Below, piece by piece: positions 21,077 through 43,514 of a DNA stretch of 64,000 nucleotides (position 1 is the stretch's first letter; each line of letters opens with the position of its first letter). The stretch comes from an uncultured Lachnospiraceae bacterium (GTDB taxonomy: Bacteria > Bacillota > Clostridia > Lachnospirales > Lachnospiraceae). The notes below the pieces were generated by a model. The model was not told where the DNA came from. It did no database searches and was given only the letters and a program-made list of their open reading frames with translations. Location of the stretch: assembly GCA_947629565.1 (NCBI GenBank), contig CANREG010000003.1, positions 1 through 64,000 on the forward strand, in the 5' to 3' direction. A program made the translations under genes and the position numbers.

Positions 21077-22900
21077 CTATCGTTTTTTTGTGCGAATCCC
21101 TTTTGAATTCACATAATATTTGCCAATCCACTTATTTTTCTTCATTTTTCCGCTGGTCTTGTCAAAATAATAATAATTTTTGTTAATCTTCTTCCAGCCC
21201 TTAACCATGGCTCCGTTCTTCGGGTTAAAATAGTATTTGCTGCCCTTATATTTCACAAATCCGGTCTTTCGCGCGCCGTTAGAGGCAAAATAATACTGCT
21301 TTTTACCTATGGTTACAATCTTATTTCTTGCCATGACGCCGGTTTCTGGATCAAGGTAATAATATTTTCCCTTGTACTTCCGGGAGCCGTACAGCATACG
21401 CGCGCTCTCCGGATCAAACAGATAATATTTGCCATTGACCTTCTGCGCTCCGGTAACAAGATAATTCTTCTTACCCACATAATAATTGGCCCCGTCTAAC
21501 GTATACAGTCCCTTTTTCGCCTGCTGTCCGGACTGCTGGAATAAATACAAATGAATGCCGTCCCCATAAATTTCATTCTTTGCCAGCGTTCCATTTCCTT
21601 TAGCCAGATAAGAATCTTTTCCGACCTGAAAAGCGCCGGTTATCAGCTTACCGGTAGTTGGATGCAGATAAAATGTATCTTCTCCCTGCATCAGAAATCC
21701 GGTTACCATATTTCCCTGCGTATCAAAATAATACCAATTGCCCTCGTATTTTACCCAGCCAATAACCTTTCTTCCATCCTCCGCAATATAGCAGGTAGAA
21801 CCATTTTGTTTGTTTAATGTTCCCTTTATAACCGGTTGTGACAAATTATAATAGGAGATAATCGCATTTGCATCTGCCTGTCCCACTTTCTTCCTTTTGG
21901 CAGCCGTGTTAAAAAATTTGCTGCAGTCAGAAGCGCTGGTTACATAGCCATGCTCAATAATCACACTAGGGATATTCTGCACCACGCCGTTGCGCACAAT
22001 AGAGTAATAATCTGCCAGTTTTCCATTCGCATAACGGTTGCCCGTACCGGATTTGCGCAGCAAAAATCCTCTGTTGGCAATACCCAGCTTACTTAACTCT
22101 TTTAATGCAACCCTGCCAAACGCCTGGGTTTCCTGCCGTATCCTGTCATGATAACCGGATTTATATGCCACCAGCAGATTAGCCCCTGTAGATCTCCCCG
22201 CATTGATATGCATGCTCACCAGAAAATCTGCATTTAACATTTTGGCATAATTATTGCGGGCAATCAGACATTCTCCAAGGCCTAACTCTGCGCAGCAGCT
22301 ATCTGCATCACGCGTTATATACACGGTCACATCCCCATATTGGTTCAGCTTGTCCTGACATGCCGCAGCAATATCATAAACCACTCTTTCCTCCCGCAGT
22401 CCATTCGCGCTTGCGCCCGGATGCCGTTTGCAGTGGCCGGGATCGAGAACAATCACTCTTGCGGTGGCCGGAGATAATTGTGATTGCATATACTGGGTTT
22501 CATCAATCTGCGCTGTCTGCTGTTCCGTTGTTGCCTCCTGCTCGCTGGATTGCTGCTCCGTCGTTGTCTGTTGCTCGGTGGTTGCCTGTTGTTCAGTCGT
22601 TGCTTGTTGCTCTGCCGTTGTTGGCTGCTCTGCCGTTGTTGGCTGCTCTGCCGTTGTTTCTTGCTCTGTCGTTGTTGGCTGCTCTGTCGTTGTTGGCTGT
22701 TCTGCCGTTGTTTCCTGCTCAGTGGACTGTCCTTCAGTCGTTGTTCCCGGTTCGCCGGACTGCTGCTCAGACGTTGCCTGCTGCCCGGTTCCAACCCTTT
22801 GTAATGTATCCGCCACTCCTATTGCCTGTACAGGATAACCAGAACCCACCAGCATGACAGCTACCAATATACCTGAAATTACTCTCTTTATCCTTCTCAA
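21077..22900 (-). CDS. N-acetylmuramoyl-L-alanine amidase with cell-wall-binding repeats
   Basis: A 607-residue secreted protein: signal peptide (about 1-26), Thr/Glu/Gln-rich linker with tandem TTEQ/TAEQ units (about 40-140), Amidase_3 domain (about 147-345), then about ten aromatic-Gly repeats of the choline/wall-binding type (YYFDTQGNMVTGF-like). The zinc and catalytic residues are visible: His in LDPGH, Glu in LREERV, His in SMHINAG and Glu in IIEHGYV. It would cleave the bond between muramic acid and the stem peptide. The start codon is TTG (22898-22900), supported by AGGAG 7 nt upstream and the basic start RRIKR. The gene is divergent from the PH-domain gene. Confidence 0.92.
   Translation of the reverse strand: MRRIKRVISGILVAVMLVGSGYPVQAIGVADTLQRVGTGQQATSEQQSGEPGTTTEGQSTEQETTAEQPTTTEQPTTTEQETTAEQPTTAEQPTTAEQQATTEQQATTEQQTTTEQQSSEQEATTEQQTAQIDETQYMQSQLSPATARVIVLDPGHCKRHPGASANGLREERVVYDIAAACQDKLNQYGDVTVYITRDADSCCAELGLGECLIARNNYAKMLNADFLVSMHINAGRSTGANLLVAYKSGYHDRIRQETQAFGRVALKELSKLGIANRGFLLRKSGTGNRYANGKLADYYSIVRNGVVQNIPSVIIEHGYVTSASDCSKFFNTAAKRKKVGQADANAIISYYNLSQPVIKGTLNKQNGSTCYIAEDGRKVIGWVKYEGNWYYFDTQGNMVTGFLMQGEDTFYLHPTTGKLITGAFQVGKDSYLAKGNGTLAKNEIYGDGIHLYLFQQSGQQAKKGLYTLDGANYYVGKKNYLVTGAQKVNGKYYLFDPESARMLYGSRKYKGKYYYLDPETGVMARNKIVTIGKKQYYFASNGARKTGFVKYKGSKYYFNPKNGAMVKGWKKINKNYYYFDKTSGKMKKNKWIGKYYVNSKGIRTKKR
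22516..22733. repeat. Low-complexity tandem repeat coding for the TTEQ linker
   Basis: Imperfect 15-18-bp units (GCTGTTGCTCGGTCGTTGT-like on the plus strand) code for the TTEQQ/TAEQP linker of the amidase. The purity of several neighbouring units (GGCTGCTCTGCCGTTGTT repeated) points to slipped-strand expansion, so linker length may vary between strains. Long open frames on the opposite strand here are by-products of the repeat. Confidence 0.7.
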
Positions 22901-27485: not shown

Positions 27486-28853
27486 CTAATTTTCGTCCCT
27501 TCTGCTCACTCGCTTTAAAAAACTCCGACTCAGAAACAGGGAAATAAAGAAGGTAATCACAAAGGCTAACGGCTGGGCCTCCTGAATCCCCGCCATTCCC
27601 CTGAGATTTGCCAATAGGAGAAGTACAGGGATAAAGACTACGCCGCTTCTCATGGAGGAAGCCGCAATGGCCATTACCCGCTGTCCTGTACTCTGGAAGC
27701 CCATTTCCGTAACCATGGTAAGGGGGACAGCAGTTAATGTGATTAACTGAAGCCTTAACGCCCGCAGGGCAAGGCCTACCACCTCCCCATCGTCCCGAAA
27801 CAGACGGACCACAGGCTCCGCATAGATATAGACCGGTATTACAGTAACGATTAAGAGTACTTCGGAAAGCGCAAAGGTAAACCAAAATGCTTTTTTCACG
27901 CGTTCATATTTTCCTGCGCCATAATTAAAACTGCTGACCGGCTGGAAGCCCTGACCGATTCCAATAGCAAGGGCCATCATAAAGAAACTGATCCGGGACA
28001 CAATGCTCATGGCAGCCACAGCCGCATCTCCGTATACAGCCGCATGGGAATTTAACATAATCGTCGCCACACTATTAAGCGCCTGGCGCAGTAGGCTGGG
28101 AAATCCGGTAGCCGTCACATTGCCCAGGGTTCTAAGCTGCCAGTCCACACAGGAAATTCTGATTTTCGTCTGGGTTCTGCCGGACAAAAACATATATAAC
28201 AGAATCAAAAAACTGATAAACTGGGAAACCGCAGTGGATATCCCCGCGCCCTCCACGCCTAAATGCAGTCCGAAGATTAAGAGAGCGTCCCCCGCAATAT
28301 TCAGCACGCCGCCTGTCATCAGCCCTAACATACCGAGCTTTGCCCGCCCCTCGTACCGCAGCAGGTTATTCATCGTCAGGCTGGCGGACATAAAAGGCGC
28401 TGCCAATATAATCCAGAAAATATAGGTTTTCGCATAGGGCGCAATCGTCTCCGTACTGCCTAACGCATACACCAGCGGATTCAGAAAAATCAAGCTGAAT
28501 ACGCCAATCAGCGCCCCCAAAATCAGCGACATAAAAAATCCGGTGGACGTATACCGGGTAGCTCTTTTCTCATCCTTATGCCCCAGACTGCGGGACATCA
28601 CGCTGCCCGCTCCCTGTCCGCACATAAAAGCCACCGCCTGCAAAATGGACATAAAGCCAAAGACCACGCCTACCGCGCCGCTGGCGCTGTTGCCGAGCGT
28701 TCCCACAAAAGCCGTATCCACCAGATTATATATGTTGGTAATCAGCATACTGAGCACCGTAGGTACTGCCAGCGTTGCCACTAACTTCTCTACCGGCGTT
28801 TCCGTCATTTTAATATACTGTCTGTTCTGAATCTCAATTTCTGTCTCCGTCAT
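27486..28853 (-). CDS. MATE-family multidrug/metabolite exporter
   Basis: A 455-residue inner-membrane protein with twelve predicted segments in two halves, each opening with the MATE signature (PTVLSMLITNIYNLVDTAFVG in the first, PSLLRQALNSVATIMLNSHA in the second). It exports cationic compounds using a sodium or proton gradient. ATG 28853 is chosen: GGGAG lies 7 nt upstream and the protein then begins MTETEIEI; the frame continues to 28907 without a ribosome site. Its G+C content is clearly higher than that of the island that begins just beyond its 5' end. Confidence 0.92.
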   Translation of the reverse strand: MTETEIEIQNRQYIKMTETPVEKLVATLAVPTVLSMLITNIYNLVDTAFVGTLGNSASGAVGVVFGFMSILQAVAFMCGQGAGSVMSRSLGHKDEKRATRYTSTGFFMSLILGALIGVFSLIFLNPLVYALGSTETIAPYAKTYIFWIILAAPFMSASLTMNNLLRYEGRAKLGMLGLMTGGVLNIAGDALLIFGLHLGVEGAGISTAVSQFISFLILLYMFLSGRTQTKIRISCVDWQLRTLGNVTATGFPSLLRQALNSVATIMLNSHAAVYGDAAVAAMSIVSRISFFMMALAIGIGQGFQPVSSFNYGAGKYERVKKAFWFTFALSEVLLIVTVIPVYIYAEPVVRLFRDDGEVVGLALRALRLQLITLTAVPLTMVTEMGFQSTGQRVMAIAASSMRSGVVFIPVLLLLANLRGMAGIQEAQPLAFVITFFISLFLSRSFLKRVSRRDEN

Positions 28854-28938
28854 ACTCTCACTCCCATAACGCTTGTTACGCACCTGCCATAATAATGTAT
28901 TTTCCATATAGAAAAATGTGCAAACCAGTCAGAACTAC

Positions 28939-29049
28939 CTATTCGTCATGGCTTAGTATTTCGTTTATGGCTTTTTTAAGCATAATATAATGGTAATCTT
29001 TAAGGGGAATGGTGTCAAGATTTTTTGCAAGTCGGGCTACTACTTCCAT
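28939..29049 (-). CDS. Small ORF at the island edge (possible remnant)
   Basis: A 36-codon frame, MEVVARLAKNLDTIPLKDYH and onward to ILSHDE. The composition looks like real protein (amphipathic helices) but it has no ribosome site, and a stop lies two codons upstream of the ATG. It may be the C-terminal remnant of a lost gene at the boundary between the MATE gene and the A+T-rich island. I do not recognise a family. Confidence 0.3.
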   Translation of the reverse strand: MEVVARLAKNLDTIPLKDYHYIMLKKAINEILSHDE

Positions 29050-29188
29050 TGATTATTTTTCTGACTATTATCAATAATTTTTCACTTCTAGACTTTCGAC
29101 ACCGCTTTACACTTTTTTATTGTTTCAAAATTTCAAAAAGGGCTTCCCGATTTCTCGAAAATCCCCATAAAATCTAGCTTTTTATTGC

Positions 29189-29299
29189 TTATTCAATGAT
29201 ATGAGCAAGCCTACCAGAGCCAATCGTTCTCCCACCCTCATGTTGCTACGATGGAATATGATACATCGCAAACCCTAATAAAATGGGAACTGTTTTTAC
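29189..29299 (-). pseudogene. Decayed 3' end of an EF-Tu-like gene
   Basis: Reading the minus strand, the last codons give HEGGRTIGSGRLAHIIE and a stop. This closely matches the C-terminus of EF-Tu ([17 protein letters not shown] in the intact gene at 42327-43514). Two codons further upstream is a TAG, and beyond it the same frame gives VPILLGFAMY, a weak echo of the preceding EF-Tu strand. DNA identity to the intact tuf end is only moderate, so this is an old, diverged copy. It lies at the left border of the accessory island whose right border is the true tuf gene. Confidence 0.7.
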
Positions 29300-29369
29300 T
29301 TATATAAGCCACAATATCCGTGTATTTTTGTGGTTTTTAAAAATTTTAGAATCATGAGCTTGAGTAAAT

Positions 29370-29421
29370 CTTGGATAACCTCGAATAAACCTTGAATAAA
29401 CCTTGAATAAATTTATCCAAG
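29370..29421. repeat. 11-bp tandem repeats within an inverted repeat
   Basis: Three tandem units, CTCGAATAAAC, CTTGAATAAAC and CTTGAATAAAT (29380-29412), are framed by CTTGGATAA (29370-29378) and TTATCCAAG (29413-29421). The block lies 13 bp beyond the stop of the AlbA_2 gene on its 3' side and could act as its terminator. A U-tract is lacking. Confidence 0.5.
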
Positions 29422-29434
29422 GTTATTCAAGATA

Positions 29435-31153
29435 TTATTTCAATACCCAATACGAGCGTTGTTGATTTGATGAATCCGTGTTAATAATACTGGCTTTCTT
29501 TAACGCCGCTAATAAATTACTTACTTTATGCTCTTTTTGAGCATCTGACAACGCATCCGGCAGCTTATCCCAAAGCAATTCCCGAATATCTTTCTTTTTG
29601 GCCTTTCCATACTGTTTCAAATACTCAACAATCAAATCTTTATAATACTTATCATCAAACCCTTTGTTTTTGATATAAGCAGCACTTTCATCAATGCTTT
29701 GCGCCGCTGATGCCGACAAATACAGACTCGACAGCCTCCCCTCTACAAGTTTCTGACTACGCAGTTTGTCAACATCTTCCCTTTCAATAGGTAAACCTTT
29801 CTGTATTCGATCAAGCAAAAACACCGTCTGTATATCTAAATTCGGATGATCATACAATATATGCATATAGCTATCATTCAAAGTCTTCCCATATATCGTA
29901 ACTTCAACATGTGTCCCAGAAGTAACATCATAATCTGGCATGGGAAAATATTTTGCTTTCTGAATGTTGTATGCTCGACGGATACCAAACGACGCAGTTT
30001 CTATCATATGAAATGACATCATTGTATCTGCTAAAAGTTTATTCCTATAAAATGGCGGTTGGTAACTTACTTCTAAAACATTTTCAATTTTCTGCGGAAT
30101 AAAATCACCCGGATTACTAAATTTAAGCTTATCCTCAAATTCATCAACATAGATTCTGCCACCGAGTTGATAATTAGTATGCGCAATACAATTATTCAGC
30201 AACTCTCGCATCAGCCAACTATCATATTGCTCCGTTTCCATTGGAAACAATGTCATCTGATTCGGCATATATCTGTAAGTCAGATTCCTTACCTTCTCAA
30301 ACACCTTGTCTACCACATTGATAAATGGAATTTTGAAAATCGCATAATCCCTATCCATATTGTCAGCACCGTATAATCTCCACATAATACTCGGCGCAGA
30401 CTGAAATATATAATCATAATCTGAATTGCCTAATAAAAGCATTCCTGCGTGCGTGATTTTTCCATTTATCATGAGTTTCAACTTTGTTAAAAACTGCTCA
30501 TCACTCATGGTATCCACTTCCTCAGAAATGTGCTCTTGATCCATTTTTTCCTTGTACTTCTCTCTTGCTAAAGCAATCGCACCCTTATCTAAGTGCTCTA
30601 TTCCTGCCTGTTCCAAAACTTGCTTTGACCAGTCTCTGCGTTCCTGTGAACGTATCGCATCTATTTTATATTGCTTTAACGGCACAAGGCTCTCTCCTGC
30701 ACGTTCATAATAATTTGTCTTCCAGTCAGTCGGTATGCCCGTTGCTGCTGCCGGAATTTTGAACATAAGCACTCTATACTCTTTGCCATTCACAACAGGA
30801 AATATCTCAATAATATCGTAGAATGTCATTCCGTTAGTTGTATCTCTGGATATTTCATATTTGAAACGCTCTAACAGACTATTATCACCTTGCTTATATG
30901 CTGTTCCTACAATCTTTTTCGTCTTAGTCCCCTGCTCCTCACCGACACCAAAAACAAGCCAGCCATATTGCTGTTGATGCAAATTTGCTTCGTTACTGAT
31001 TGCAGAAAAATATCTACCTATTTTGTCTGTGTCATAGCTGCTTTTTGCTTCCTTAAACTCTACAATTTCATATTCCCAACGGTCTATGAGATTTTCAAGT
31101 ATTTCGTAATATTCAACATCTTTTACAGTTTGGTTATATTCAAAATATGGCAT
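29435..31153 (-). CDS. AlbA_2/Schlafen-like ATP-binding protein
   Basis: A 572-residue protein: N-terminal AlbA_2 (Schlafen AlbA-like) domain about 25-150 (EYEIVEFKEAKSS ... YGWLVFGVGEE), a central GHKL-type ATPase-like domain about 300-420 (MRELLNNCIAHTNYQ, DKLKFSNPGDF) and a C-terminal winged-helix region about 500-572. Such proteins are annotated as DNA-binding or ATP-dependent regulators, are common in defence islands, and often stand beside restriction-modification genes. The start follows AAGGTGG. It is last in the island's minus-strand series, separated by 288 bp from the Rad50-like gene. Role inferred: regulator or effector of the island. Confidence 0.85.
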   Translation of the reverse strand: MPYFEYNQTVKDVEYYEILENLIDRWEYEIVEFKEAKSSYDTDKIGRYFSAISNEANLHQQQYGWLVFGVGEEQGTKTKKIVGTAYKQGDNSLLERFKYEISRDTTNGMTFYDIIEIFPVVNGKEYRVLMFKIPAAATGIPTDWKTNYYERAGESLVPLKQYKIDAIRSQERRDWSKQVLEQAGIEHLDKGAIALAREKYKEKMDQEHISEEVDTMSDEQFLTKLKLMINGKITHAGMLLLGNSDYDYIFQSAPSIMWRLYGADNMDRDYAIFKIPFINVVDKVFEKVRNLTYRYMPNQMTLFPMETEQYDSWLMRELLNNCIAHTNYQLGGRIYVDEFEDKLKFSNPGDFIPQKIENVLEVSYQPPFYRNKLLADTMMSFHMIETASFGIRRAYNIQKAKYFPMPDYDVTSGTHVEVTIYGKTLNDSYMHILYDHPNLDIQTVFLLDRIQKGLPIEREDVDKLRSQKLVEGRLSSLYLSASAAQSIDESAAYIKNKGFDDKYYKDLIVEYLKQYGKAKKKDIRELLWDKLPDALSDAQKEHKVSNLLAALKKASIINTDSSNQQRSYWVLK

Positions 31154-31265
31154 ACCGCACCACCTTATACAAAAATTTTACTATTACCACAAAATCTTTC
31201 AAATACTTTCATTTTTTGATTAGACTAAGAAGTTTTACAATATTATTTTTAATAATCCCTATGTC

Positions 31266-31319
31266 CTAATCTATGTTTTCAACATACATTTCAATCCATT
31301 GCTTATATGCCAACACCAT
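31266..31319 (-). CDS. 17-codon ORF with strong ribosome site (leader or relic)
   Basis: ATG at 31317-31319 (minus strand) follows AAGGAG at 7 nt, and a TATAAT lies about 60 nt upstream. The product is MVLAYKQWIEMYVENID, then a stop. It sits in the 288-bp gap before the AlbA_2 gene. It could be a leader peptide or the first codons of a lost gene. Confidence 0.3.
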   Translation of the reverse strand: MVLAYKQWIEMYVENID

Positions 31320-31441
31320 GATTCAACTCCTTATACACATATCTTCAAATTGCGTATATGCGTGCTTAAAACATAGTATTATACACATTTCCCATCATCA
31401 CAATGTGAGCCTTTATTTGATAATTACCTATTTCTTGAATT

Positions 31442-34063
31442 TTATTTTATCTCGGCAACATTTGCAATTTTTATATTTCTAATTAAATTATCTAACTTAA
31501 ACAAATGATCATAAACACACTTTACATCAGCACGTTCAAATTCCTTTTGTTCATCTTCAACATGCGTCCCTTTATTCAGAATACGCCAATTTTCAGGTTT
31601 TTTAAGACTTTTTAATTCTATGCTAATATCTTCCATACCTTTTATCTTAGCAGTTTTCTTAATCAGCGCATCAACTATAGAGCTTAAATCCGGTAAACTT
31701 TTAGGACTTCTCATTCCTACAGATATCATCGCATTTGAAGATTTGGCGATTAAATTCCACAGATTATACGCAATGCTTTCCATTGCCTGGCGACATTTTG
31801 AAGCGGCATCTTTTGTTTCATTTTTATTGTACTTATCTTCCGCTGCCATCAATGGCATTTTTGAATCAGAATATTCCACTATCACCCCTCGTTCTTCTAA
31901 TGAATCTGTCGGCATAAATTTATACACTATTGCACTATCCTTTACTCTCTGTAAACCCAACTTATCTTGCAATTTAAAAATGAATTGTTCCCCATGTGTA
32001 GACAATATAATCTGTGTATTTGCAAAGTCGGCATTATTCATCAATAAATCTGCCACACCATTTCTATGATCGTCATCAATGGCATTTACAATATCGTCAA
32101 ATATAATAAAATTCAGATTGTCATGCACTGCTTTAGCCAAAAGAATTGACAATCCTAAAATTTTAATATGCCCTTCGCTCAAAACTTGTAACGCCTCCGA
32201 TTTACTACCATCAGCAAAAGTGATATACATTTTGTCAGAAACTGCACTTGGCAAAATCAATTCTTGTATTTTTTCAAACTCTGCATCATCCTGATTAATC
32301 ATATTATAATAATCAACAATTTTTCGTTCCAAATCTTGTGCTATCTGTCTCGGCAACTCATTATTATAATCAACTAAACTACCAATTATCTTATTATAAG
32401 CCTCTATAATTTTTGCATTAAATTCACAGATTCTTTTTTCTTCCTGAATTTTCTTTATTATTTCTCCGCTTTTTTCATCAAATTCTTTAATTTCGTTTTG
32501 ACAATTTTTTATTATCTGTTTCTTTTCAATCATCTGTGTTTTTAATGTAGCCAGTGAATTTCTTATAACCTTAAGTTCAGCAACTTGTTGATCATATTCA
32601 GAATTTGATTTGCTCGCCAAATTATTGTATTCTTCTATTTTATTTTGAGCAACTTCCTTATCAAATTCCTTGAATTCTTCGCAAATTTCAAACCACTTAC
32701 GCACAGGTCCTGCAAACATTCGAATATCTTCCAATTCTACAGATACGAATTTGTCTGTTTCAATTTGTAATAGATTAAAAAATTTTTGATTTTTCGAAGT
32801 GAACTCTATTATCTCTCGAATATTTTGTCTAGCGTTTTTAGCAGCATCATTAATATTTTTTTGTATTCGTTCAATTTTAGAAAATGTTTTCAACTGCGCC
32901 TTAGCATATTTAAATGGATTCCTTTCGGCATTCGTCAAATCCGTTCCGCAAGCAGGGCAACTTGTCGTTTCATCCAAATTAGATATAATCTCATACAAAT
33001 TCCTATAATTTACTTGCAACGCCATATCAGATAATTGAGTTCTATTTTCATTAACAGTTTTAAGATTTTTCTGCAATTCAATAATATGGTTTAAAAAGTT
33101 TTCAACATACTCTATCGGTATTGCCGCAACATATCGTTTATCTCGCTCTGCAATTTTTACCGTCAAAATCCCCGTAATAGGATTATCAAGATAATCTAAG
33201 ACAAGATCAACTTCAGTTATTTCTTGCACCTTAAGTTTTGTAATTTCTTTTTTAATCAGATCATTAATTTTATCTAATTCCTTTTTGTTTTCTATAAGTT
33301 GTTTTTCCTTAATATCTCTTGATAGTTTTTTTTCTTCAAACAATTTCTCCGTAGCAGAGTTTGTTGTTAAATATTTCTCATCAAAATTTACCGTGAATCC
33401 CTGTACAAACTCATTAAATGTTGACAAACCAAACAAAGCAGCTATTCTTTCACTCTGATTTCTAGAATTCAGTACGCTAATATGAGAAAAATCCGCAATT
33501 CTATTTTTTTCTACAAATGCAAACCTATATGCATCATAATCAATTATGGCTTCATCTTTTGAGCCATCCTCATATGTGCAAATAATCGTCGGCTTTTTCC
33601 CTTTTTTAGTAACAGTATTTTTTATATAAGTAGATAATTTAATTTTATTTGCATCAGCATCTTCAATAATACCAAGCAAACTATATTCTAATGCTTCACT
33701 AAAACTAGATTTTCCAGAACCGTTAGGTCCATAAAGGAATACATATTGTTTATCAAGATTAAATATTCGACTCGTTGAAAAACCTCTAAATGAATCTACT
33801 TCTAGAGTATTTAATTTCTTTATCTTCTTTGTATTTATTTTCGGTTCAACTAATAAATTTTCAAAAGTTTTATCACATACGCCGTTTTTCTCATTGATAT
33901 ACTCTGCAAATTTATTAGCCCTTTTTCCACCAGCAGTTCCGCCAGCTTCTATAAGCTCATTATAATGTTTCAGCAAAATATTGACCAATGTAATATCATA
34001 TTTATTCAGTCCTTCTAATGTTTCCGCCCAATGTTTTACTTCTCTACCTACAATTTCGTTCAT
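31442..34063 (-). CDS. Rad50/SMC-like ATPase with CxxC hook, island-associated
   Basis: A 873-residue protein. A leading region of about 85 residues precedes the ATPase head: Walker A GPNGSGKS (about 112-119), two coiled-coil arms (about 235-285 and 465-555) around a zinc-hook-like CPACG (Cys369, Cys372), ABC signature VLSEGH (about 627-632, normally LSGGE-like), Walker B NFIIFDD (about 651-657) and H-loop LSTHGEQF. After the head comes an extra C-terminal domain of about 130 residues (KCRQAMESIAYNLW ... LNKGTHVEDEQKEFER) that I cannot name; by analogy with RloC- and Septu-type proteins it may be the effector (inference). ATG 34063 follows GGAGAGG; the frame itself opens with TTG at 34078. 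Very A+T-rich. Confidence 0.8.
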   Translation of the reverse strand: MNEIVGREVKHWAETLEGLNKYDITLVNILLKHYNELIEAGGTAGGKRANKFAEYINEKNGVCDKTFENLLVEPKINTKKIKKLNTLEVDSFRGFSTSRIFNLDKQYVFLYGPNGSGKSSFSEALEYSLLGIIEDADANKIKLSTYIKNTVTKKGKKPTIICTYEDGSKDEAIIDYDAYRFAFVEKNRIADFSHISVLNSRNQSERIAALFGLSTFNEFVQGFTVNFDEKYLTTNSATEKLFEEKKLSRDIKEKQLIENKKELDKINDLIKKEITKLKVQEITEVDLVLDYLDNPITGILTVKIAERDKRYVAAIPIEYVENFLNHIIELQKNLKTVNENRTQLSDMALQVNYRNLYEIISNLDETTSCPACGTDLTNAERNPFKYAKAQLKTFSKIERIQKNINDAAKNARQNIREIIEFTSKNQKFFNLLQIETDKFVSVELEDIRMFAGPVRKWFEICEEFKEFDKEVAQNKIEEYNNLASKSNSEYDQQVAELKVIRNSLATLKTQMIEKKQIIKNCQNEIKEFDEKSGEIIKKIQEEKRICEFNAKIIEAYNKIIGSLVDYNNELPRQIAQDLERKIVDYYNMINQDDAEFEKIQELILPSAVSDKMYITFADGSKSEALQVLSEGHIKILGLSILLAKAVHDNLNFIIFDDIVNAIDDDHRNGVADLLMNNADFANTQIILSTHGEQFIFKLQDKLGLQRVKDSAIVYKFMPTDSLEERGVIVEYSDSKMPLMAAEDKYNKNETKDAASKCRQAMESIAYNLWNLIAKSSNAMISVGMRSPKSLPDLSSIVDALIKKTAKIKGMEDISIELKSLKKPENWRILNKGTHVEDEQKEFERADVKCVYDHLFKLDNLIRNIKIANVAEIK

Positions 34064-34136
34064 TTGCATCCTCTCCAATATCTTAAATTAATTCAAATTA
34101 GTTTTTTATACATCTTATTCTCCATACTACCTGTAC

Positions 34137-34358
34137 TCAATCAATGTCCTCCGCAATCAGCAATATTATATTATTGGTCATAATCTGTGATATACGATAT
34201 TTTGAATTATTAGTGCTTCACCCAGCCACGACACATTCCGTATCTACAAGCATTTTAAGATATCTTCGCACTATTGCAACCGATTTCTTTGTAATATTTT
34301 CAGCTTCTTTAGGATTAATTTCCCCATTTTTATCAATAAAGCCAATAATTCCCATCAT
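34137..34358 (-). pseudogene. Interrupted winged-helix gene remnant
   Basis: The frame starts ATG-ATG only 3 bp after the previous gene and gives 46 residues (GIIGFIDKNGEINPKEAENI ... RRYLKMLVDTECVVAG). Then comes a TGA, after which the same frame continues STNNSKYRI and ends 26 codons later. Joined, the two parts read as a complete winged helix, recognition helix then wing (CVVAG-STNNSKYRI). Either one base changed Trp or Gly to stop, or the short product is functional. Similar wHTH units end AlbA_2-type proteins, so it may descend from one. Confidence 0.5.
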
Positions 34359-34361
34359 TTT

Positions 34362-35156
34362 TTATGATTCTTTTATTAATTGAAGGTATTCTCGCCCTAA
34401 TGTTGTAATTCTATATGTATCTACAGAAGATATCTTTTTCAATTTCGGCAGCTTTATATCTCTCGGTCTACTCCTTTTCCTCTCTCTTTCAATATCTTGC
34501 AAATATTTTACTATTTGCTCTAAATTATTATCACTAATTTCCTCATTTTTACTTTGCAGTAAGCCAAACCTCTCAAGTTTTTCTTTAATATATTTTAACC
34601 GTTCATAGCTTATTTCCAATTCTGATACAGTATCATGAGCCGTTTCCTCTGTAGTAAGCGAATATAATCTAAGCACTCGCAAATCTAAATCATTTAACTG
34701 TGATAAAGTCTTAAAAAACATCAATGCCATGTCTTCATTTGCATTTGTTTTAATCAAATTAATATAGCCATTTACATTATAATCCACCTTCTGCTCTTGA
34801 ATTTCATCCACTATCTGATCCAAAAGCATCTCTGAAAGTGTAGCTAAATATTGTTTTGTTTTTTCATTACTTTCTAACTTTAATAATCGTTCTTCTAATT
34901 CTTCTTGTCTCGTACTGAAATGATAAAGTGCCCTATTTATATTTCGCTCCAAACGATTTTGTTTATATCCAAGACGAATATTATTAATTCTAGGGCATAT
35001 TGCTCCCACAATTTCTCCTGCCAATGTTGCCATGCCTTCCCCTACAATACACTCACCATATTCTTGAACCACTGTTGGCAAAACCTCACTTAAAACTACA
35101 CTGCCTGCTTCTTCATTAGAAGCATGAAACAAATCCAACATCTTATACTTGTTCAT
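34362..35156 (-). CDS. Unrecognised island protein with C-terminal winged-helix-like region
   Basis: A 264-residue protein. The N-terminal part contains a weakly hydrophobic helix pair (about 15-55, VVLSEVLPTVVQEYGECIVG ... EIVGAICPRI), then a basic helical stretch (NNIRLGYKQNRLERNINRA). A long helical region (about 80-190) and a C-terminal segment resembling a winged helix (YERLKYIKEKLERFGLL ... ITTLGREYLQLI) follow. The layout recalls DUF4393/Abi-alpha-like phage-exclusion proteins, but I cannot confirm this. The start follows GGAG at 5 nt. It lies in series with the KAP NTPase and the 95-residue protein, with gaps under 100 bp. Confidence 0.6.
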   Translation of the reverse strand: MNKYKMLDLFHASNEEAGSVVLSEVLPTVVQEYGECIVGEGMATLAGEIVGAICPRINNIRLGYKQNRLERNINRALYHFSTRQEELEERLLKLESNEKTKQYLATLSEMLLDQIVDEIQEQKVDYNVNGYINLIKTNANEDMALMFFKTLSQLNDLDLRVLRLYSLTTEETAHDTVSELEISYERLKYIKEKLERFGLLQSKNEEISDNNLEQIVKYLQDIERERKRSRPRDIKLPKLKKISSVDTYRITTLGREYLQLIKES

Positions 35157-35208
35157 AATATCTCCGCCATTTCCTACACTTTTATAAAAAATCTATAACA
35201 TATATATT

Positions 35209-35496
35209 TTATCTATAAGAATCCTTTGACTTACTAGCGGCATCAAGCGTTTTTTCTTCAAGTAATGATTCCAAAAATTTTATACAGTTTTGTGCATTCT
35301 CCGGAATGCTCTGCGGCATAATCGGGTTAGAACAATTATAAATAAAAGTTTCAGCTCCATATTTTATATTGAGCTTTTTAAGATATATATCAAGCTGATT
35401 CCATTTTGAACTATTCATTAACTGTTGTATTCTTTTTTTCTCAAAAATAATATCCTCAATTTCCTTTCCACTCTTGACTTCTTCTATTTCATCCAT
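35209..35496 (-). CDS. Small unrecognised island protein, 95 aa
   Basis: A 95-residue, charged, helical protein (MDEIEEVKSGKEIEDIIFEK at the start, then LKKLNIKYGAETFIYNCSNP and an acidic tail). No signal, membrane segment or known motif is visible. Its ribosome site (GGAAGG) is far from the ATG (about 13 nt), so expression may depend on coupling. It is placed between the KAP NTPase and the 264-residue protein, which suggests an accessory or adaptor subunit (inference). Confidence 0.5.
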   Translation of the reverse strand: MDEIEEVKSGKEIEDIIFEKKRIQQLMNSSKWNQLDIYLKKLNIKYGAETFIYNCSNPIMPQSIPENAQNCIKFLESLLEEKTLDAASKSKDSYR

Positions 35497-35590
35497 ATCA
35501 TTTACAGTCCTTCCTACAAATTTTATTATCTATTAAACTCACAAAATTTCCTCTACCGTGTAAATTTATGCAGATATAATTTTTGTCCTA

Positions 35591-37231
35591 TCATTGTCCA
35601 TTTTCCTCAAGTCCCTTTAATATAACATTAATTCTATGATTTGCCATATTATCGCACTTATTTTTAAGTTCGCTACAATATGCCAAAAGCCTATTTTTGT
35701 CTTCAAAATATAGTACATACATAATATTTTGAGATATTCTATACTTTTCTTCCGTCACACCACAAATCGGAAATAGCTTCTCATTATATAATGCATCTAC
35801 AGCCCCACGGATAGAATCTTTTAAATAGTTGTTACTTGCAAACTCTCTCAAGAAATAAGAATACTGATAAGCTTTTTCACCTTCTGCATTTTTTGAAAGA
35901 TATTCAACATAAGCTTTTACAGCCTCCTTCTTAATGTCCTCATTTAATTCTTTCACTATTTTTTTATTTATCGGCGACTGTATATAAAATGATTCAATTC
36001 CATATGTTAAATACTCTATTTTTCCTTTCATTACTTCTGCATAAATTATATCGTGCAATCTTTCTTTATACTCATTTAACATTTCTTTTATATCGATTTG
36101 CAAATGCCCACCCCAAATAATGTATTCATCAGCATATCGCATTAATTTCGCAATATTTGTCTCATGTTTAATACTTTCAGCCAAATATGGCAAAACCAGT
36201 TCTAATTCTTTATCAGATTTATAAAAATTTGCTTTTTCACCTGCATGAATAAAAATCTGGTACTCTACTTCAATCTCGTCTTCCAGTAAATCAATTTCAT
36301 TTTCATAATATTTTTTCAGCAGTTCAACCATGTTCCTACTAATTCGTGTTCCTTGAAGATAATTTCTATTGACTCTGTATTCAAGCAGGTTACTAATATT
36401 TTGCACTATATGCATTTCTAAATCACTCTGATTTTTTTCAGGTTCTTTATAATACAAATTATCAATCGACTCTACAACTATTCCAAAACATGCTAATCGT
36501 ATTTCATCGCAAAATTCATCCTTATAACCATCTTTCAATTTCAATTTTACATCATCATAAAAATTTTGTGCCTTTTGAAGAGTTCGCAAATTCTTTACAG
36601 CATGTTTACGCAAAAACTGGTTTATGAATCCATAATGAATATTTAATTTTTTCCAATCAACATTCTCAGAAGGTTCATTAATATAATATACTCTGTCAAT
36701 AACCTTTTCACTGTATTTATCAAATATTTCTCTTTGAGATAATTCCAAGATATTTGCCACTAAAATTATTTTAACATTGCTACATTTTTTTAATTCTTCT
36801 ATAATACCAAATACTTCTTCTAAATTAATGCTGTCACTCATTCTTTCCAAATCATCTATGACTATGAGATGAAGATCATTAAACTTTTCCGATGAACTCA
36901 AAAAAATCTCTTTTTCTTTTATCAGCAAAGTAAATACTTTTTTTACAACATCCATTTCTTGGGATATATCAGCCGCGATATCTATTATCCTTGATGTCAT
37001 TTCACTAATTTTTTTCTTACCGTTCAACGCTAGCTGAAAGAAAGCCTCATGATAAATTTCTTGAGCATCTTTAATTCCAAACATTGAAATATTACAAACA
37101 TTTTTGCTATCAGTTAGTGTTTGGCTAATAGCATACGATTTACCAACTCCCCAAGGTCCATCAAATAAAATACATTTATACGGTAAATCTCCATATTTAT
37201 CTATAATTTCTTTAATATAATCTGCTCTCAT
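35591..37231 (-). CDS. KAP-type P-loop NTPase
   Basis: A 546-residue protein with Walker A GPWGVGKS (25-32), Walker B LIVIDDLERM (122-131) and a following VANILEL sensor strand, then about 350 residues of helical repeats. This is the layout of KAP/YobI-like NTPases of the STAND-related group, many of which act in phage exclusion as sensors coupled to an effector. No membrane insertions, typical of classical KAP proteins, are visible. Start after GAGGAGAG. It lies 46 bp downstream of the type III restriction gene and heads the unrecognised 95-aa and 264-aa genes. Very A+T-rich. Confidence 0.75.
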   Translation of the reverse strand: MRADYIKEIIDKYGDLPYKCILFDGPWGVGKSYAISQTLTDSKNVCNISMFGIKDAQEIYHEAFFQLALNGKKKISEMTSRIIDIAADISQEMDVVKKVFTLLIKEKEIFLSSSEKFNDLHLIVIDDLERMSDSINLEEVFGIIEELKKCSNVKIILVANILELSQREIFDKYSEKVIDRVYYINEPSENVDWKKLNIHYGFINQFLRKHAVKNLRTLQKAQNFYDDVKLKLKDGYKDEFCDEIRLACFGIVVESIDNLYYKEPEKNQSDLEMHIVQNISNLLEYRVNRNYLQGTRISRNMVELLKKYYENEIDLLEDEIEVEYQIFIHAGEKANFYKSDKELELVLPYLAESIKHETNIAKLMRYADEYIIWGGHLQIDIKEMLNEYKERLHDIIYAEVMKGKIEYLTYGIESFYIQSPINKKIVKELNEDIKKEAVKAYVEYLSKNAEGEKAYQYSYFLREFASNNYLKDSIRGAVDALYNEKLFPICGVTEEKYRISQNIMYVLYFEDKNRLLAYCSELKNKCDNMANHRINVILKGLEENGQ

Positions 37232-37277
37232 GAACTCTCCTCAAAAATATTTTTTGTGCTGCTTTCACTTTTTACAT

Positions 37278-39947
37278 TTATAACCCCTTCACAATCTCCA
37301 TAAACCGATCATGTGAATACGCACCCTCATATCCCGGTTCTTTTCTTTGAAACACCATATAATACTTATACAATCTCCCTAACATAGAAGCTTTCGCCGC
37401 CCACTTTGAGCCGTTCTCCGCCTTCACCCTAGATTCAGAATTTTCCAGCTGGTCGCCTTTGGTTTCAATCAGTAGAATTTTTCCGCTTTCCGTCATTACA
37501 ATCAGATCAGGATATGCCGTAACTGCTCCATTGATTGCAAATCCTTTTCTGGAACTGTTTCTGTGCCACCACTTGACATTGGATAAAGCAGACAACTCCC
37601 ATACTACCTTTTTTTCATAATCATTATCAAATTGCTCTTCTTCCTCATAAAGAGACTTGGGTATAGTTGCTATCGTCTTAGCTGGAGCAATTACTTTTGA
37701 AAAATAGTATGTTGGTGCACACTGAATACGTTCCTGCTCTAGCCATAGGGCAAACTGTTCCGCCGCATATTCTTGTAATAATTGTTTTACTTTCTTCTCT
37801 ACAGCAACAATGTACGGATATGGTGATTGCTCTAAATCAGTCAATTGATCCTCTGTCATATTAGCCATAATTCGACTAACATATTCTTCCAATTCTCTGT
37901 CATTGACAGCATTTATTTTAGATATTTTTTTACATATCATACCTTTGCACAGTCTTCTTTTTTTGTCTGATGGTTGTGTATCAAACCATTCTTTCAAATA
38001 TTTTCGATCAAATCCCGACAACTGCCATGCCTTGGGCATTCCATCAACAGAATCTTCCACATCAACCTTGGCAATTTCTACAGAAACAGAATTGAAATCA
38101 ATTTCCGTATCTTTGCTTTTCAGGGAAAAGCCTTTATATAAATCCTCTTTTTCCAATAGAGCTGTTTCGCAATCTGAAAACAAACTTGGCCCTGTTTCAA
38201 TCACAAATTGTGGAATTTTTATATTTTTAATTTCATCTCTGAATTCTGGTTTAACTTCATATGTTTTCATTTTAACTTTTTCTTCTTCCGGAATACCTTG
38301 TAATATATCTTCATCATCATTATTCATTTCTTCCCAATAAACATTATTTTGGGCTTCTGCGTGGCTTAACATTGCTGTTATATCTTCCTCCACTTTAGAC
38401 ACTGTACCTAACATTTCCCCTTCATGTATAGCAGATGCGTCCTTCAGGATATCAGGAAACACACCTGTTAGCATATCGGTATTAATATCAGGCATGCCTT
38501 TTTCCACCATAACATCCGGCTGAGTAATGTTCTCCAATGATAATTGAACCCCTATTGGAGATTCCGTCACACATGCTTCTTCATCTCTTTCCAGAACTCG
38601 ATAATCTTTTTTACTAAATCCTGCTGCATTCAGACCTTTTACAACCTGTTCACAGCTTGCAAGAAAATCTGCGGATGAAGTGATAACATAAGAAAGATTT
38701 AATACATCCCGCTTACTAGCCTTTGTATAGGGCATTCTCAATACTCGCCCTAATATCTGCTCTACATCTACAACAGAACTTCTATTTGCCACCGTTGCTA
38801 AAATATAAGCAAACGGACAGTCCCATCCTTCCTTTAGCGCATTAATAGTTATGATATACCTGATTTCACAATTTCTTGACAACAAATCCTGCTTCTTAAT
38901 ATCGTCCCTATCGGCTGTTTTTATCGCAATCTGTTCCTCAGGTATTCCAATATCCAAAAGTATCTTTTTTATTTTTTCATAAGTGGTACTGTCATCCTTG
39001 TTTTTCGGTTCCGCCTGAAATAATACAATAGGGCGGATATATTTCCCGTCCTCCATCTGAGCAGCTTCATTTTCAAGTTTCTGTCTTAATCCAATTGCAC
39101 TAAGGAACACATCTTCCTGTGTCTTCCTATTATAAACAATAACCGGGAGCTTGATCATCTCTTCCTTTTTCAACTGCTTGGCATCAACAAATGAAATGAT
39201 ATTGCTCCTTTCTTTTGGCGTAGCTGTTAATTCCAGCACAAAGGAAGGGTTAAAATTTTGCAGCATCTCAACACTTAAATCGGAAGTGGCATGATGGCTC
39301 TCATCTACAATAACCACCGGATTTAATTTGCGTATGACCTGTATCAGCGCTGTTTCGTCAGTATTTTCAAGTAATGTTCCCTTGTCTGCTTTGAATCCGG
39401 CAAACTCAGCCAAATATCCATTTTCCTGATACGCTTTCCTGCCTTCTTTTTTGCTTGTCCGAAATGAATCGTAGCTCAATACAAATATGGATAAATGTTC
39501 CCCAACGCTCATCGGATTAAAATTCTGTCCAGTTAACAGTTGTTCCTTGGTATATACCTCGATACTACCGCCAAAATCTGCATTTATTTTCATCCGATAT
39601 GGGTGTCCGCTATCCTGTAGGGCGTTAATCGTCTGCTGCAAAATAGCATCTGACGGGACAAGCCATACAACTGCCATGGGATGAATATGCGGCATAGAAT
39701 CAAAAATTATTTTTATAGAACTTGCCGCTATAAATGTTTTGCCTCCTCCAGTGGGGACTTTCATACATACATGTGGAACACCCGATAAAACGGTATGATA
39801 AGGCGGCATCCCCTCTATTCCTACCGAAATCCCCTTTTCTTCCCATAATGTATTGTATGCCTGCTTAATGTTTTGCTTTTCGATCAGCAAATCTAAAAAA
39901 TGTTTCAGATCACCTAATACATTTTTCTGATATCCTTTTAATTCCAT
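37278..39947 (-). CDS. Type III restriction enzyme-like helicase-nuclease (Res)
   Basis: A 889-residue protein: superfamily 2 helicase core with Walker A TGGGKT (66-71), DESH (215-218), TATP (241-244) and a C-terminal helicase lobe with VEQILGRVLRMP. The C-terminal PD-(D/E)xK nuclease is visible as YPDLIV (Asp814) and LIETKGD (Glu828, Lys830). Type III enzymes cut DNA after translocation between two unmethylated head-to-head sites and need the Mod subunit for recognition. The Mod gene ends 11 bp upstream. The start follows AGGAG, which overlaps the Mod stop region, so the pair is coupled. All key residues are intact. Confidence 0.9.
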   Translation of the reverse strand: MELKGYQKNVLGDLKHFLDLLIEKQNIKQAYNTLWEEKGISVGIEGMPPYHTVLSGVPHVCMKVPTGGGKTFIAASSIKIIFDSMPHIHPMAVVWLVPSDAILQQTINALQDSGHPYRMKINADFGGSIEVYTKEQLLTGQNFNPMSVGEHLSIFVLSYDSFRTSKKEGRKAYQENGYLAEFAGFKADKGTLLENTDETALIQVIRKLNPVVIVDESHHATSDLSVEMLQNFNPSFVLELTATPKERSNIISFVDAKQLKKEEMIKLPVIVYNRKTQEDVFLSAIGLRQKLENEAAQMEDGKYIRPIVLFQAEPKNKDDSTTYEKIKKILLDIGIPEEQIAIKTADRDDIKKQDLLSRNCEIRYIITINALKEGWDCPFAYILATVANRSSVVDVEQILGRVLRMPYTKASKRDVLNLSYVITSSADFLASCEQVVKGLNAAGFSKKDYRVLERDEEACVTESPIGVQLSLENITQPDVMVEKGMPDINTDMLTGVFPDILKDASAIHEGEMLGTVSKVEEDITAMLSHAEAQNNVYWEEMNNDDEDILQGIPEEEKVKMKTYEVKPEFRDEIKNIKIPQFVIETGPSLFSDCETALLEKEDLYKGFSLKSKDTEIDFNSVSVEIAKVDVEDSVDGMPKAWQLSGFDRKYLKEWFDTQPSDKKRRLCKGMICKKISKINAVNDRELEEYVSRIMANMTEDQLTDLEQSPYPYIVAVEKKVKQLLQEYAAEQFALWLEQERIQCAPTYYFSKVIAPAKTIATIPKSLYEEEEQFDNDYEKKVVWELSALSNVKWWHRNSSRKGFAINGAVTAYPDLIVMTESGKILLIETKGDQLENSESRVKAENGSKWAAKASMLGRLYKYYMVFQRKEPGYEGAYSHDRFMEIVKGL

Positions 39948-39958
39948 CTATTTGTCTC

Positions 39959-41716
39959 CTACAATTTAGCTATGTCTCTGGGTATTTTCTTAAAAGTAAT
40001 ATTGTATTTCCTTAACAATTCATCGGACAGTGTACACATATCCGCATAAATCACATATCCATCAGCTTTTGTTTTAACTGTTGTCAAAAAATCTCTATCC
40101 AATATAGTTACTATTTCTTTTTCATAATAAAAATAGTAAGCAACATCATTATATGTAGATAAATAATAGACATTATCCTCCAAAGCACTATTCGCATATC
40201 CGGTTTTCGTCTCCATATACCAGATATAGTCACGAATTTTCTCCACATCTGCATTGGGATTCAGATCGCCGTATTCAAGAAGAAGTCTCTCTCCTAATTC
40301 ATAAAAACTGAAGTCTCCCCCTGTGCCTTCTACTTTTTTACTTTCTTCACCATATCCGTCAATAACCCTACGAACACGTTCTGCCGTAATGCTTTCCGCA
40401 TAATCCATCATTTCAATCAAGATAAATTTGCGGTTACCGCCATCCGCTTTGTTCATGTTGAGGACGGCATGGGCAGTAGTTCCTGAGCCGGCAAAAGAGT
40501 CTAAAATAATAGAATCTTGATTAGTCACACATTTTAGTACAAATTCAATTAATCTGCTTGGCTTAGGTGTATCAAACGTCGTTTTACCGGCAAAAATAGA
40601 TATCATTTCTTTCTTAGCCTCATCCGTATGTCCGGTCTCCTCATAGGACCAAAAATTAGTCACAGTCCTTCCTCCAACCTGATTCAAGTATGTTTTCTTT
40701 GCAATTCCTCCCATTCCGCCCTTAGTAAAGTAATACTTAGGCCACTTTCCTCTTTCATATACTGCTTGAGCTTTGGTTCTAGAATTTTCAAGTGTATCAA
40801 CAAGAACAATTCCTTTTACATCTTTCCTAATATCTTTTACTGAAATTCCACAAACTTCTGCTCTTTTCGCTTCATCATGTAAATCCGCCAATTTATACCT
40901 ACACCAGCCATTCATTATTTCTAAAGCTTGCTCCTGCCCAAATGTCCAACATCTTGCATTTCCCGGATAAATAAGTTCTCCTGTAAATGGATGTTGAATT
41001 GCGTAAACCATTCCCTGATGTGTTATTGCTCCCGGTGCAAATGCATTGTCAGTTCTCCAATCAGATACATCATTATCTGGATTAGCATATTTTGCATTCA
41101 TTTCTTTTGTTCTTGGCAATCTGTTTGGATTCCAATTAGGACATTTGCTATAAACCAGTATATGTTCCACCGCATTACTAATTCCCTTAGAATCATTTCT
41201 AGCTGCATATGTTCTTTGCCATGAAACATTAGATACAAAACAGTTTAAGCCAAACACTTCATCGCATATTAATTTTAAATTATAGATTTCATTATCATCA
41301 ATGCTAATAAAAATAGCACCGTCATCTGAAAGCAACTTTTGTAACAGTCTAAGTCTGGGATACATCATGCAAAGCCATTTATCATGTCTGGATAAATCTT
41401 CGCCTTCCTTTCCCACTACTTCTCCAAGCCACTTTTTAATCTTAGGATCATTCACATTATCATTATACACCCACCCTTCATTACCTGTATTATAAGGCGG
41501 ATCTATATAAATACACTTAATTTTTCCTTCATACTTTGGCAGCAAAGCCTTCAACGCTTCAAGATTATCCCCATGAATAATCATATTCTGGCTGCCATTA
41601 TCCTCTCTTGTCATCTTGCCATTTCCATAACTATATTTTCGTTCCAACATGCGATATGGAACTTCATTATGATGATTGATTACTTTATCTTTTCCAATCC
41701 AATTTAATGTAGGCAT
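39959..41716 (-). CDS. Type III DNA methyltransferase (Mod), beta class
   Basis: A 585-residue protein with DPPY (72-75, IYIDPPYNTGNEGW) before the AdoMet motif FAGSG (408-412, ILDSFAGSGTTAH), the order of beta-class N6-adenine or N4-cytosine methyltransferases. The central region (about 160-380) should hold the target recognition domain. It is the first gene of the minus-strand island series and directly precedes the Res gene, so it both modifies and gives specificity. The start follows GGAGGG at 4 nt. No simple-repeat tract, as in phase-variable mod genes, is visible. The 291 bp upstream of it (41717-42007) hold no gene I recognise. Confidence 0.92.
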   Translation of the reverse strand: MPTLNWIGKDKVINHHNEVPYRMLERKYSYGNGKMTREDNGSQNMIIHGDNLEALKALLPKYEGKIKCIYIDPPYNTGNEGWVYNDNVNDPKIKKWLGEVVGKEGEDLSRHDKWLCMMYPRLRLLQKLLSDDGAIFISIDDNEIYNLKLICDEVFGLNCFVSNVSWQRTYAARNDSKGISNAVEHILVYSKCPNWNPNRLPRTKEMNAKYANPDNDVSDWRTDNAFAPGAITHQGMVYAIQHPFTGELIYPGNARCWTFGQEQALEIMNGWCRYKLADLHDEAKRAEVCGISVKDIRKDVKGIVLVDTLENSRTKAQAVYERGKWPKYYFTKGGMGGIAKKTYLNQVGGRTVTNFWSYEETGHTDEAKKEMISIFAGKTTFDTPKPSRLIEFVLKCVTNQDSIILDSFAGSGTTAHAVLNMNKADGGNRKFILIEMMDYAESITAERVRRVIDGYGEESKKVEGTGGDFSFYELGERLLLEYGDLNPNADVEKIRDYIWYMETKTGYANSALEDNVYYLSTYNDVAYYFYYEKEIVTILDRDFLTTVKTKADGYVIYADMCTLSDELLRKYNITFKKIPRDIAKL

Positions 41717-42007
41717 ACTACCCTCCGTATTTACTGATTTTCTGTATTACACTTTCTAGGATTATGCGGTTTCTCTACATCTTTGGAAATAAGTCAAACA
41801 TTACCTTTCAATATTGCCCCGCTAATACGCCCCTCTTTGGAACACATCTAAATCCTGTGTGGTGCTATATTCCATATTCTTTCTGATTCTTTGGCTACTA
41901 AGTATTCCCTTACACATTTTCCGCAAAACATCAAATCATTTAACTATATTATATTTGTTATGGGAAAGACTTTCAACTATATTTTAAAATCAAATTATAC
42001 AAATATT

Positions 42008-42235
42008 TCATGCCACAAGCAACCTCTCTTTCATAATCGTATTATAAAATTCACTGTCCGGGTTAATTTCATGAATTTCAAACACATCAACTTTCTTATT
42101 TAGCACCTCCCGTAATTCCTCTGCAAGTGCAAAAACCTCAGTGAGCCTAAAGTTTTCTCCTCCATAAACCAAAAAATCTATATCACTATCTATCCTTGTT
42201 TCTCCCCTTGCATATGAACCAAACAAATAAATCTG
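42008..42235 (-). pseudogene. N-terminally truncated MNT-type nucleotidyltransferase
   Basis: The frame encodes the catalytic core GSYARGETRIDSDIDFLV (GSxARG...DxD) of minimal nucleotidyltransferases, followed by a normal C-terminus (about 75 residues in all). The usual 20-30 residues before LFGSYARG are missing: an in-frame TAG lies three codons upstream of the visible homology, and there is no ATG or ribosome site. Intact MntA-type proteins pair with HEPN toxins; no HEPN gene follows. It is a relic at the right edge of the island, 69 bp downstream of the tuf terminator. Confidence 0.7.
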
Positions 42236-42271
42236 CTACACCTGATATTTTACCAAAACTTCCAACCACGC

Positions 42272-42304
42272 AAAAAGGGATTCGGAGCCAACTCCGAATC
42301 CCTT
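42272..42304 (-). terminator. Terminator of the str operon (after tuf)
   Basis: On the minus strand a perfect 13-bp stem (AAGGGATTCGGAG / CTCCGAATCCCTT) with a 4-nt loop is followed by TTTTTG, 22 bp after the tuf stop. Confidence 0.9.
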
Positions 42305-42326
42305 AATTTTACTATGATTTTATCAA

Positions 42327-43514
42327 TTACTCAACAATCGTAGCCACACGACCAGAACCAACTGTTCTACCACCCTCGCGGATAGCGAATGTAAGACCCT
42401 GCTCCATAGCTACCGGATGAATCAACTCGATTGTCATCTCTACATTATCGCCAGGCATACACATCTCTGTACCGGAAGGTAACTCGCAAACGCCGGTTAC
42501 GTCTGTTGTTCTGAAGTAGAACTGTGGACGATAGTTATTGAAGAATGGTGTATGACGACCACCCTCGTCCTTGGTCAGAACGTAAACCTGAGCAGTAAAC
42601 TTCTTATGGCAGGTAACAGTACCTGGCTTAGCTACAACCTGTCCACGAACAATATCTGTTCTCTGGATACCACGAAGTAATGCGCCGATGTTATCACCAG
42701 CCTGAGCCTCGTCTAACAGCTTACGGAACATCTCGATACCGGTTACAACTGTCTTCTGTGTCTCTTCCTTAACACCGATGATCTCAACTTCATCATTTAA
42801 GTGAAGCACACCACGCTCTACTCTACCGGTTGCAACAGTACCACGACCGGTAATTGTAAATACGTCCTCTACAGGCATCAGGAATGGCTGATCTGTAGCA
42901 CGCTGTGGATCAGGAATATACTCATCAACAGTGTTCATTAACTCTAAGATCTTGTCGCCCCACTCGCCTGAAGGATCCTCTAATGCCTTAAGAGCGGAAC
43001 CCTTAACGATAGGACAATCCTTGAAACCATACTCCTCTAACTGCTCGGTAACTTCCATCTCAACTAACTCGATTAACTCGTCGTCATCTACCATATCGCA
43101 CTTATTTAAGAATACTACGATATAAGGAACGCCAACCTGACGAGACAATAAGATGTGCTCCTTTGTCTGAGCCATAACACCGTCAGTAGCAGCTACAACA
43201 AGGATAGCGCCGTCCATCTGAGCAGCACCGGTAATCATGTTCTTAACATAGTCGGCATGACCCGGGCAGTCAACGTGAGCATAATGTCTCTTCTCTGTCT
43301 CATACTCAACGTGAGCGGTAGAAATTGTGATACCTCTTTCTCTCTCTTCCGGAGCCTTATCGATATTCTCGAATGCAACAGCCTCACCAGTACCTAATCT
43401 CTCATGAAGAGTCTTTGTGATTGCTGCTGTTAAAGTAGTTTTACCATGATCTACGTGTCCGATTGTACCAATGTTACAATGTGGTTTCGTTCTTTCAAAC
43501 TTTGCTTTTGACAT
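42327..43514 (-). CDS. tuf: Translation elongation factor Tu
   Basis: A 395-residue GTPase that brings aminoacyl-tRNA to the ribosome. G1 [10 protein letters not shown]2 with RGITI, G3 DCPGHADY and G4 NKCDMVDD are intact, and domains II and III end [20 protein letters not shown] 43514 ([10 protein letters not shown]) is chosen over the longer frame to 43550: it has AAGGAGG 9 nt upstream and is the universal start. It is the last gene of the str operon, with a second promoter of its own (43570-43598) and a strong terminator. Confidence 0.98.

Follow-up and report, generated by a model that had tools for sequence, protein, structure and literature searches.

A candidate defence island at the tuf 3' end of an uncultured Lachnospiraceae bacterium, with apparently independent modules and a Rad50-like ATPase carrying a predicted HEPN-type domain

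Seven genes of low G+C content lie between tuf and a MATE gene in a 64,000-nucleotide stretch (hereafter the window) of contig CANREG010000003.1 (assembly GCA_947629565.1) from an uncultured Lachnospiraceae bacterium, and they raise the question of whether they form one defence system or several, and how they came to stand there. These seven main open reading frames, all on the minus strand between tuf (stop at 42327) and MATE (27486–28907), encode, from the tuf side, the type III restriction subunits Mod and Res, a KAP-type NTPase, two small proteins (p95 and p264), a Rad50-like ATPase, and an AlbA_2 protein. An earlier reading made from the DNA letters (the sequence-only reading) had listed these genes, their families, and their lower G+C content relative to the flanks; all seven are present and open, the families are supported by Pfam and PADLOC, and the G+C content is 0.289–0.382 in the island genes versus 0.501 in MATE, 0.453 in tuf, and 0.476 in fusA. 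Its designation of the locus as a defence-like island is likewise supported. We favour, with a probability of roughly 0.6, a defence island at the tuf 3' end that is composed of independent modules and in which the Rad50-like ATPase, with its C-terminal HEPN-type domain, would act as a second line in the manner of PrrC and RloC. The island is of the ordinary modular kind, its distinct variant being the restriction-linked ABC-HEPN protein.

The proximal boundary of the island is the intact tuf 3' end (42318–42377, minus strand), and a displaced, degenerate copy of this att-like repeat lies at the distal boundary (29180–29239, minus strand; 72% over 60 bp). The degenerate copy had a local score of 26, compared with a maximum of 17 among 976 random window segments, and the window sequence 29094–29240 corresponds to the tuf 3' end plus its direct downstream sequence in genome G209 (82%; G and L numbers denote our genomes and loci). 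Because positions 29180–29239 are a degenerate tuf 3' end, the inserted segment spans approximately 29240–42326 and is flanked by copies of its target end, as expected of a tuf-3'-end integrative element. Thus, the island that the sequence-only reading had placed at 28908–42304 is real, and its extent is corrected. The distal island end (29248–29453) is shared with locus L062, in which positions 2794–3008 match window positions 29453–29248 (blastn, 82%). The tuf repeat was absent among the 20 listed of 30 families in the first repeat search.

Comparison of tuf ends in 20 relative loci and the window revealed that 16 matches continued into the gene (to query position 116–117) and seven stopped at positions 74–87, six of these at 74–78. 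The seven truncated copies occur in five genomes with cargo between; L049 and L051 (2 of the 20 relative loci) had no tuf-end match. A search with a displaced tuf end from G199 gave matches in 17 of 26 genus genomes, intact tuf ends counted. In G205 (contig C5, L044), CBASS-like SMODS, SLATT_4 and a HEPN gene lie beside two displaced tuf-end copies, with an AAA_15 ATPase gene between them, and in G215 an Abi_2 gene adjoins tuf. Genome G220 keeps MATE (97%) and tuf (99%) with other genes between, including one for another SLFN_AlbA_2-HATPase protein. Insertions seem to have occurred repeatedly at the tuf 3' end in this genus; no earlier description of such a hotspot turned up in a limited literature search, and the site is a place to seek further defence genes in these gut Clostridia. 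Two short stretches between MATE and tuf in G220 (C10:24702–24797 and 22320–22356) match window positions 41865–41961 and 42247–42283, which suggests an earlier related island there.

The sequence-only reading had suggested that the genes downstream of Res may form one or two separate systems, or a composite one controlled with restriction; it took co-conservation of the five non-restriction genes without Mod/Res as the mark of a system, and their occurrence in unrelated positions as a finding that would speak against one. Such positions were found for the ATPase (82 loci), p264 (9 loci), KAP, and Mod/Res. The ATPase loci comprise the best 80 of 114 relatives from a genome scan and 2 from a viral scan. 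When the other six island proteins were compared with these loci (tblastn, E 1e-4), KAP, p95, p264, AlbA_2, and Res had no match, and Mod had distant matches in 2 of the 82, one of which (L128) has an adjoining Res-like gene; at least 5 kb was available on both sides in 51 loci, the other 31 being weaker tests. None of the six matched at L009 and five more ATPase-relative loci from named records. In L062, whose ATPase is 88% identical, the ATPase gene is directly followed by the shared island-end sequence, so AlbA_2 is absent at the corresponding island end. The other six proteins were without a match (E 1e-3) at the nine p264 loci, which are 3.2 to 17 kb long and include two from a single genome. 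The KAP relative in G215 (53%) has no partners within 12 kb, the one in an SPbeta-like phage does not have them beside it, and G217 carries a Mod relative (52%) together with a Res relative (47%), without the other island genes. Given these scattered positions, independent modules gathered at an insertion hotspot fit better than one system, and by this distribution the island genes appear to be separable. The protein p95 had no plasmid match at E 0.1 (phages and whole genomes were not searched for it); it has no detectable relative, so a private KAP–p95 or p95–p264 link is possible.

The Rad50-like protein (31442–34078, minus strand; 878 aa) is an ABC ATPase of Rad50/SMC type, split by a coiled coil with the zinc-hook motif CPAC (residues 374–377; 32948–32959, minus strand). 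Both cysteines (C374 and C377) are conserved in 75 of 75 sequences, and long helices surround the hook in the structure model. The C-terminal domain (residues 731–878; 31445–31888, minus strand) has a predicted HEPN fold, and seven of its residues (R763, E767, W774, W831, N835, G837, and H839) are invariant in 51 rows. The R-x3-E...H triad is complete in 73 of the 75 sequences, the remaining two being gapped; the E-to-H spacing is 71–83 residues in all 73, and Thr precedes His in 65 of the 75. On the basis of this fold prediction, the domain is a putative HEPN RNase. An Rx6H motif, also considered as the HEPN motif, was dropped: R832 is conserved in just 25 of 75 sequences. VIA on the full ATPase model covered residues 86–739.

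Relatives of this protein are widely spread. One is present in each of 25 plasmid records (19 typed as conjugative), and an Enterobacter relative is matched by 20 of 5426 E. coli genomes; no phage relative was found at 1e-20. In public records these proteins mostly go under the bare name "AAA family ATPase", as in all 10 E. coli rows listed and in most plasmid rows. Type I restriction or BREX genes occur within the stretch in 12 of the 82 ATPase loci, and in 8 of the 82 the ATPase gene directly adjoins such a gene in the same orientation, namely HsdS or HsdR at five loci and BrxL at three. Both counts are lower bounds, because neighbours were labelled by Pfam on one member per homology cluster and restriction types other than type I and BREX were uncounted. 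Because of the eight abutting loci, a functional link between the ATPase and restriction is still plausible; one composite system, among the possibilities named by the sequence-only reading, is not supported. In L064, the ATPase gene lies between the genes of a PglX-like methylase and PglZ. A conserved small protein of approximately 110–116 aa is encoded after the ATPase gene in L063 (after position 7182) and L065 (11642–11992), the L065 copy having no Pfam match. On a Liquorilactobacillus plasmid (L174), an ATPase-HEPN relative has genes for an MvaI/BcnI-family restriction enzyme and a methyltransferase in its vicinity.

The ABC-HEPN kind is already known, since restriction-linked ABC-HEPN fusions were described in 2013 (PMC3710099). 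The defining features of RloC are R-X3-E-X36-52-H together with a zinc hook and a length of 658–897 aa, and 8 of 73 members have a link to restriction of type I or III (PMC2610378). The Rad50-like protein resembles RloC in that (i) its ABC ATPase is split by a coiled coil with a CxxC hook; (ii) its C-terminal domain is of HEPN type with R-x3-E...H; (iii) its length of 878 aa lies within the RloC range; and (iv) its relatives sometimes stand beside restriction genes. By contrast, X is 71–83 rather than 36–52, and the residue before the His is usually Thr, a position often held by Ser in RloC. The window protein had no match at E 1 to PF13166 (AAA_13), which we take to be the model covering RloC and PrrC, and none was found in its genome at 0.001, whereas 42 of 54 family members matched at 0.001. 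An hhalign comparison of the family with three AAA_13 proteins aligned 143 columns of the ATPase part only (probability 85, E 6.3e-6), and the HEPN domain was not aligned. Because the E–H spacing lies outside the definition and the PF13166 match is missing, we do not claim membership of RloC; by analogy, the protein probably works like RloC. The classic RloC spacing (R-x3-E-x44-SH) is present in a protein at L164:1417–4197, whose hook reads CPYC and whose C-terminus is extended by an additional stretch.

The PrrC protein with type Ic restriction, a restriction-linked ATPase-RNase acting as a second line, serves as the model for the island; it differs from the island, where restriction is of type III, the ATPase is of Rad50 size and has a zinc hook, and any physical coupling between them is putative. 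Restriction would be the first line. The Rad50-type head with its zinc hook may keep the C-terminal HEPN ribonuclease inactive until DNA damage or failing restriction is sensed, whereupon the released RNase would cut host RNA, probably tRNA, and translation would stop. The Rad50-like protein is thus likely a second-line suicidal RNase, and the AlbA_2 protein (29435–31153, minus strand; 572 aa) is probably another. The latter, a Schlafen-type putative RNase, matches SLFN_AlbA_2 (6.5e-11) and HATPase_c_4 (7e-15), both above the Pfam cut-off. Its architecture is that of the Schlafen-histidine-kinase-wHTH proteins presented as BREX backup RNases in PMC12839542, but it stands beside type III restriction instead of BREX, and no wHTH model in Pfam matched it. 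A broader proposal is tentative: the ABC-HEPN RNases may form a clade apart from RloC and PrrC (R-x3-E-x71-83-H and W-x3-N-x-G-x-H), a portable guard for type I, type III, and BREX systems that would fire on their failure, in combination with a genus-wide tuf 3'-end defence hotspot in which each insertion would replace the last EF-Tu codons. If that guard role holds, the clade is a distinct and widespread addition to the second-line RNases.

We infer site-specific insertion at the tuf 3' end, probably by a tyrosine recombinase. Searching the 26 genus genomes with a tyrosine recombinase from G199 (Phage_integrase 2.6e-21) gave 16 matches, spread over 10 genomes; 4 of the 16 share a contig with a tuf end, at distances of approximately 65 bp (G208), approximately 1.2 kb (G199 and G213), and 2.3 kb (a fragment in G215). 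The displaced tuf end could instead be the remainder of an old duplicate tuf gene, with the island acquired by gradual homologous exchange. The remnant is indeed tuf-derived, the window holds no recombinase, none being seen by sight among the island open reading frames, and most recombinase matches in the genus lie away from tuf. Against this, five genomes together carry seven truncated copies with cargo between, of which six break off at almost one tuf position, and in four genomes a recombinase lies near a tuf end, so that such a duplicate is rather improbable. The G199 recombinase had no match in the window's own genome (E 1e-20), so the island is not autonomous now. The favoured explanation as a whole is slightly weakened by the 12 of 16 recombinase matches that are not on a contig with a tuf end, and by the near identity of L069 and L070 (99.9% over 13 kb), both among the five HsdS/HsdR loci, which leaves seven independent abutting loci.

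Alternatives also exist for the functions of the modules. The Rad50-like protein might be a Lamassu-type LmuB or a DNA-repair SMC, whose C-terminal helical domain would be structural or partner-binding rather than an RNase; its SMC-like head matches Rad50/SMC, and LmuB models, which match all 54 relatives, are the top-ranking ones. Because no LmuA or LmuC partner was among the PADLOC matches listed for eight window proteins (for Mod, the best 25 of 43), Lamassu was rejected, and given its own HEPN-like domain with an invariant charged triad we consider the LmuB or SMC alternative unlikely. The genes downstream of Res could, on the other hand, constitute one composite system, or a KAP–p95–p264 and an ATPase–AlbA_2 system, of recent origin and controlled together with Mod/Res. 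They share a strand; the gaps from Mod to p264 are short (Mod–Res 11, Res–KAP 46, KAP–p95 94, and p95–p264 52 bp); G+C is 29–32% from KAP through the ATPase, compared with 36–38% in Mod, Res, and AlbA_2; and in L064 a SLFN_AlbA_2 and HATPase_c_4 protein follows the ATPase gene within the BREX operon. Yet gaps of 283 bp before and 288 bp after isolate the ATPase gene, L062 has it at the island end without AlbA_2, and the ATPase loci, the p264 loci, and the G215 KAP relative lack the partners, save for the distant Mod matches. A single five-gene system was therefore rejected for lack of co-occurrence, and any such composite arrangement is quite improbable. The favoured island of independent modules, namely type III restriction, KAP NTPase, the two small proteins, the Rad50-like ATPase-HEPN, and Schlafen-HATPase, accommodates these distributions.

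Mod (39959–41716, minus strand; 585 aa) matches N6_N4_Mtase (Pfam, 4.3e-38) and MTase_III (PADLOC, 3.4e-196), and Res (37278–39947, minus strand; 889 aa) matches ResIII (Pfam, 2.5e-18) and REase_III (PADLOC, 3.9e-74). The methylase and the helicase-nuclease, whose nuclease site was recognised by eye only, form one operon, as in type III restriction-modification. The winged-helix remnant listed by the sequence-only reading is not confirmed, although no dedicated winged-helix search was made; the remnant near tuf is a truncated MntA-type nucleotidyltransferase (42008–42226, minus strand; Polbeta 8.6e-14; NCBIfam MntA_antitoxin 1e-12, its 47.9 bits falling short of the cut-off of 60), and no adjoining HEPN partner gene was seen. 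The KAP-type NTPase (35591–37231, minus strand; 546 aa) contains the KAP P-loop domain (PF07693, 5.7e-5, 23 bits, cut-off 20) and matches phrog_4740 (9.7e-29). Its residues 6–230 resemble the KAP protein of the PADLOC candidate system PDC-S49 (1.3e-19), of whose 624-position profile only a part is matched. KAP matches, mostly of the N-terminal part, occur in 4 of 291 class genomes (own included), 75 plasmid records, and 7 phage records.

Neither small protein has an accepted Pfam match. For p95 (35209–35496, minus strand), four libraries gave only a sub-threshold Pfam match to HTH_8 (E 0.16). The protein p264 (34362–35156, minus strand) belongs to a rare family (phrog_11520, 3.5e-34) found in 6 of 391 class genomes (own included), 1 of 26 genus genomes, five plasmid records, and one phage record; neither the p264 nor the KAP alignment found a relative in a viral scan. 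The neighbourhood of p264, read by sight, includes an AAA_21 ATPase in L155 and, in L011, genes for an AAA ATPase and a helicase together with a Shedu-domain gene. In L151, L153, and L154, which are prophages or phage, p264 relatives directly precede genes that by sight are terminase-like, a position at which accessory genes are commonly found.
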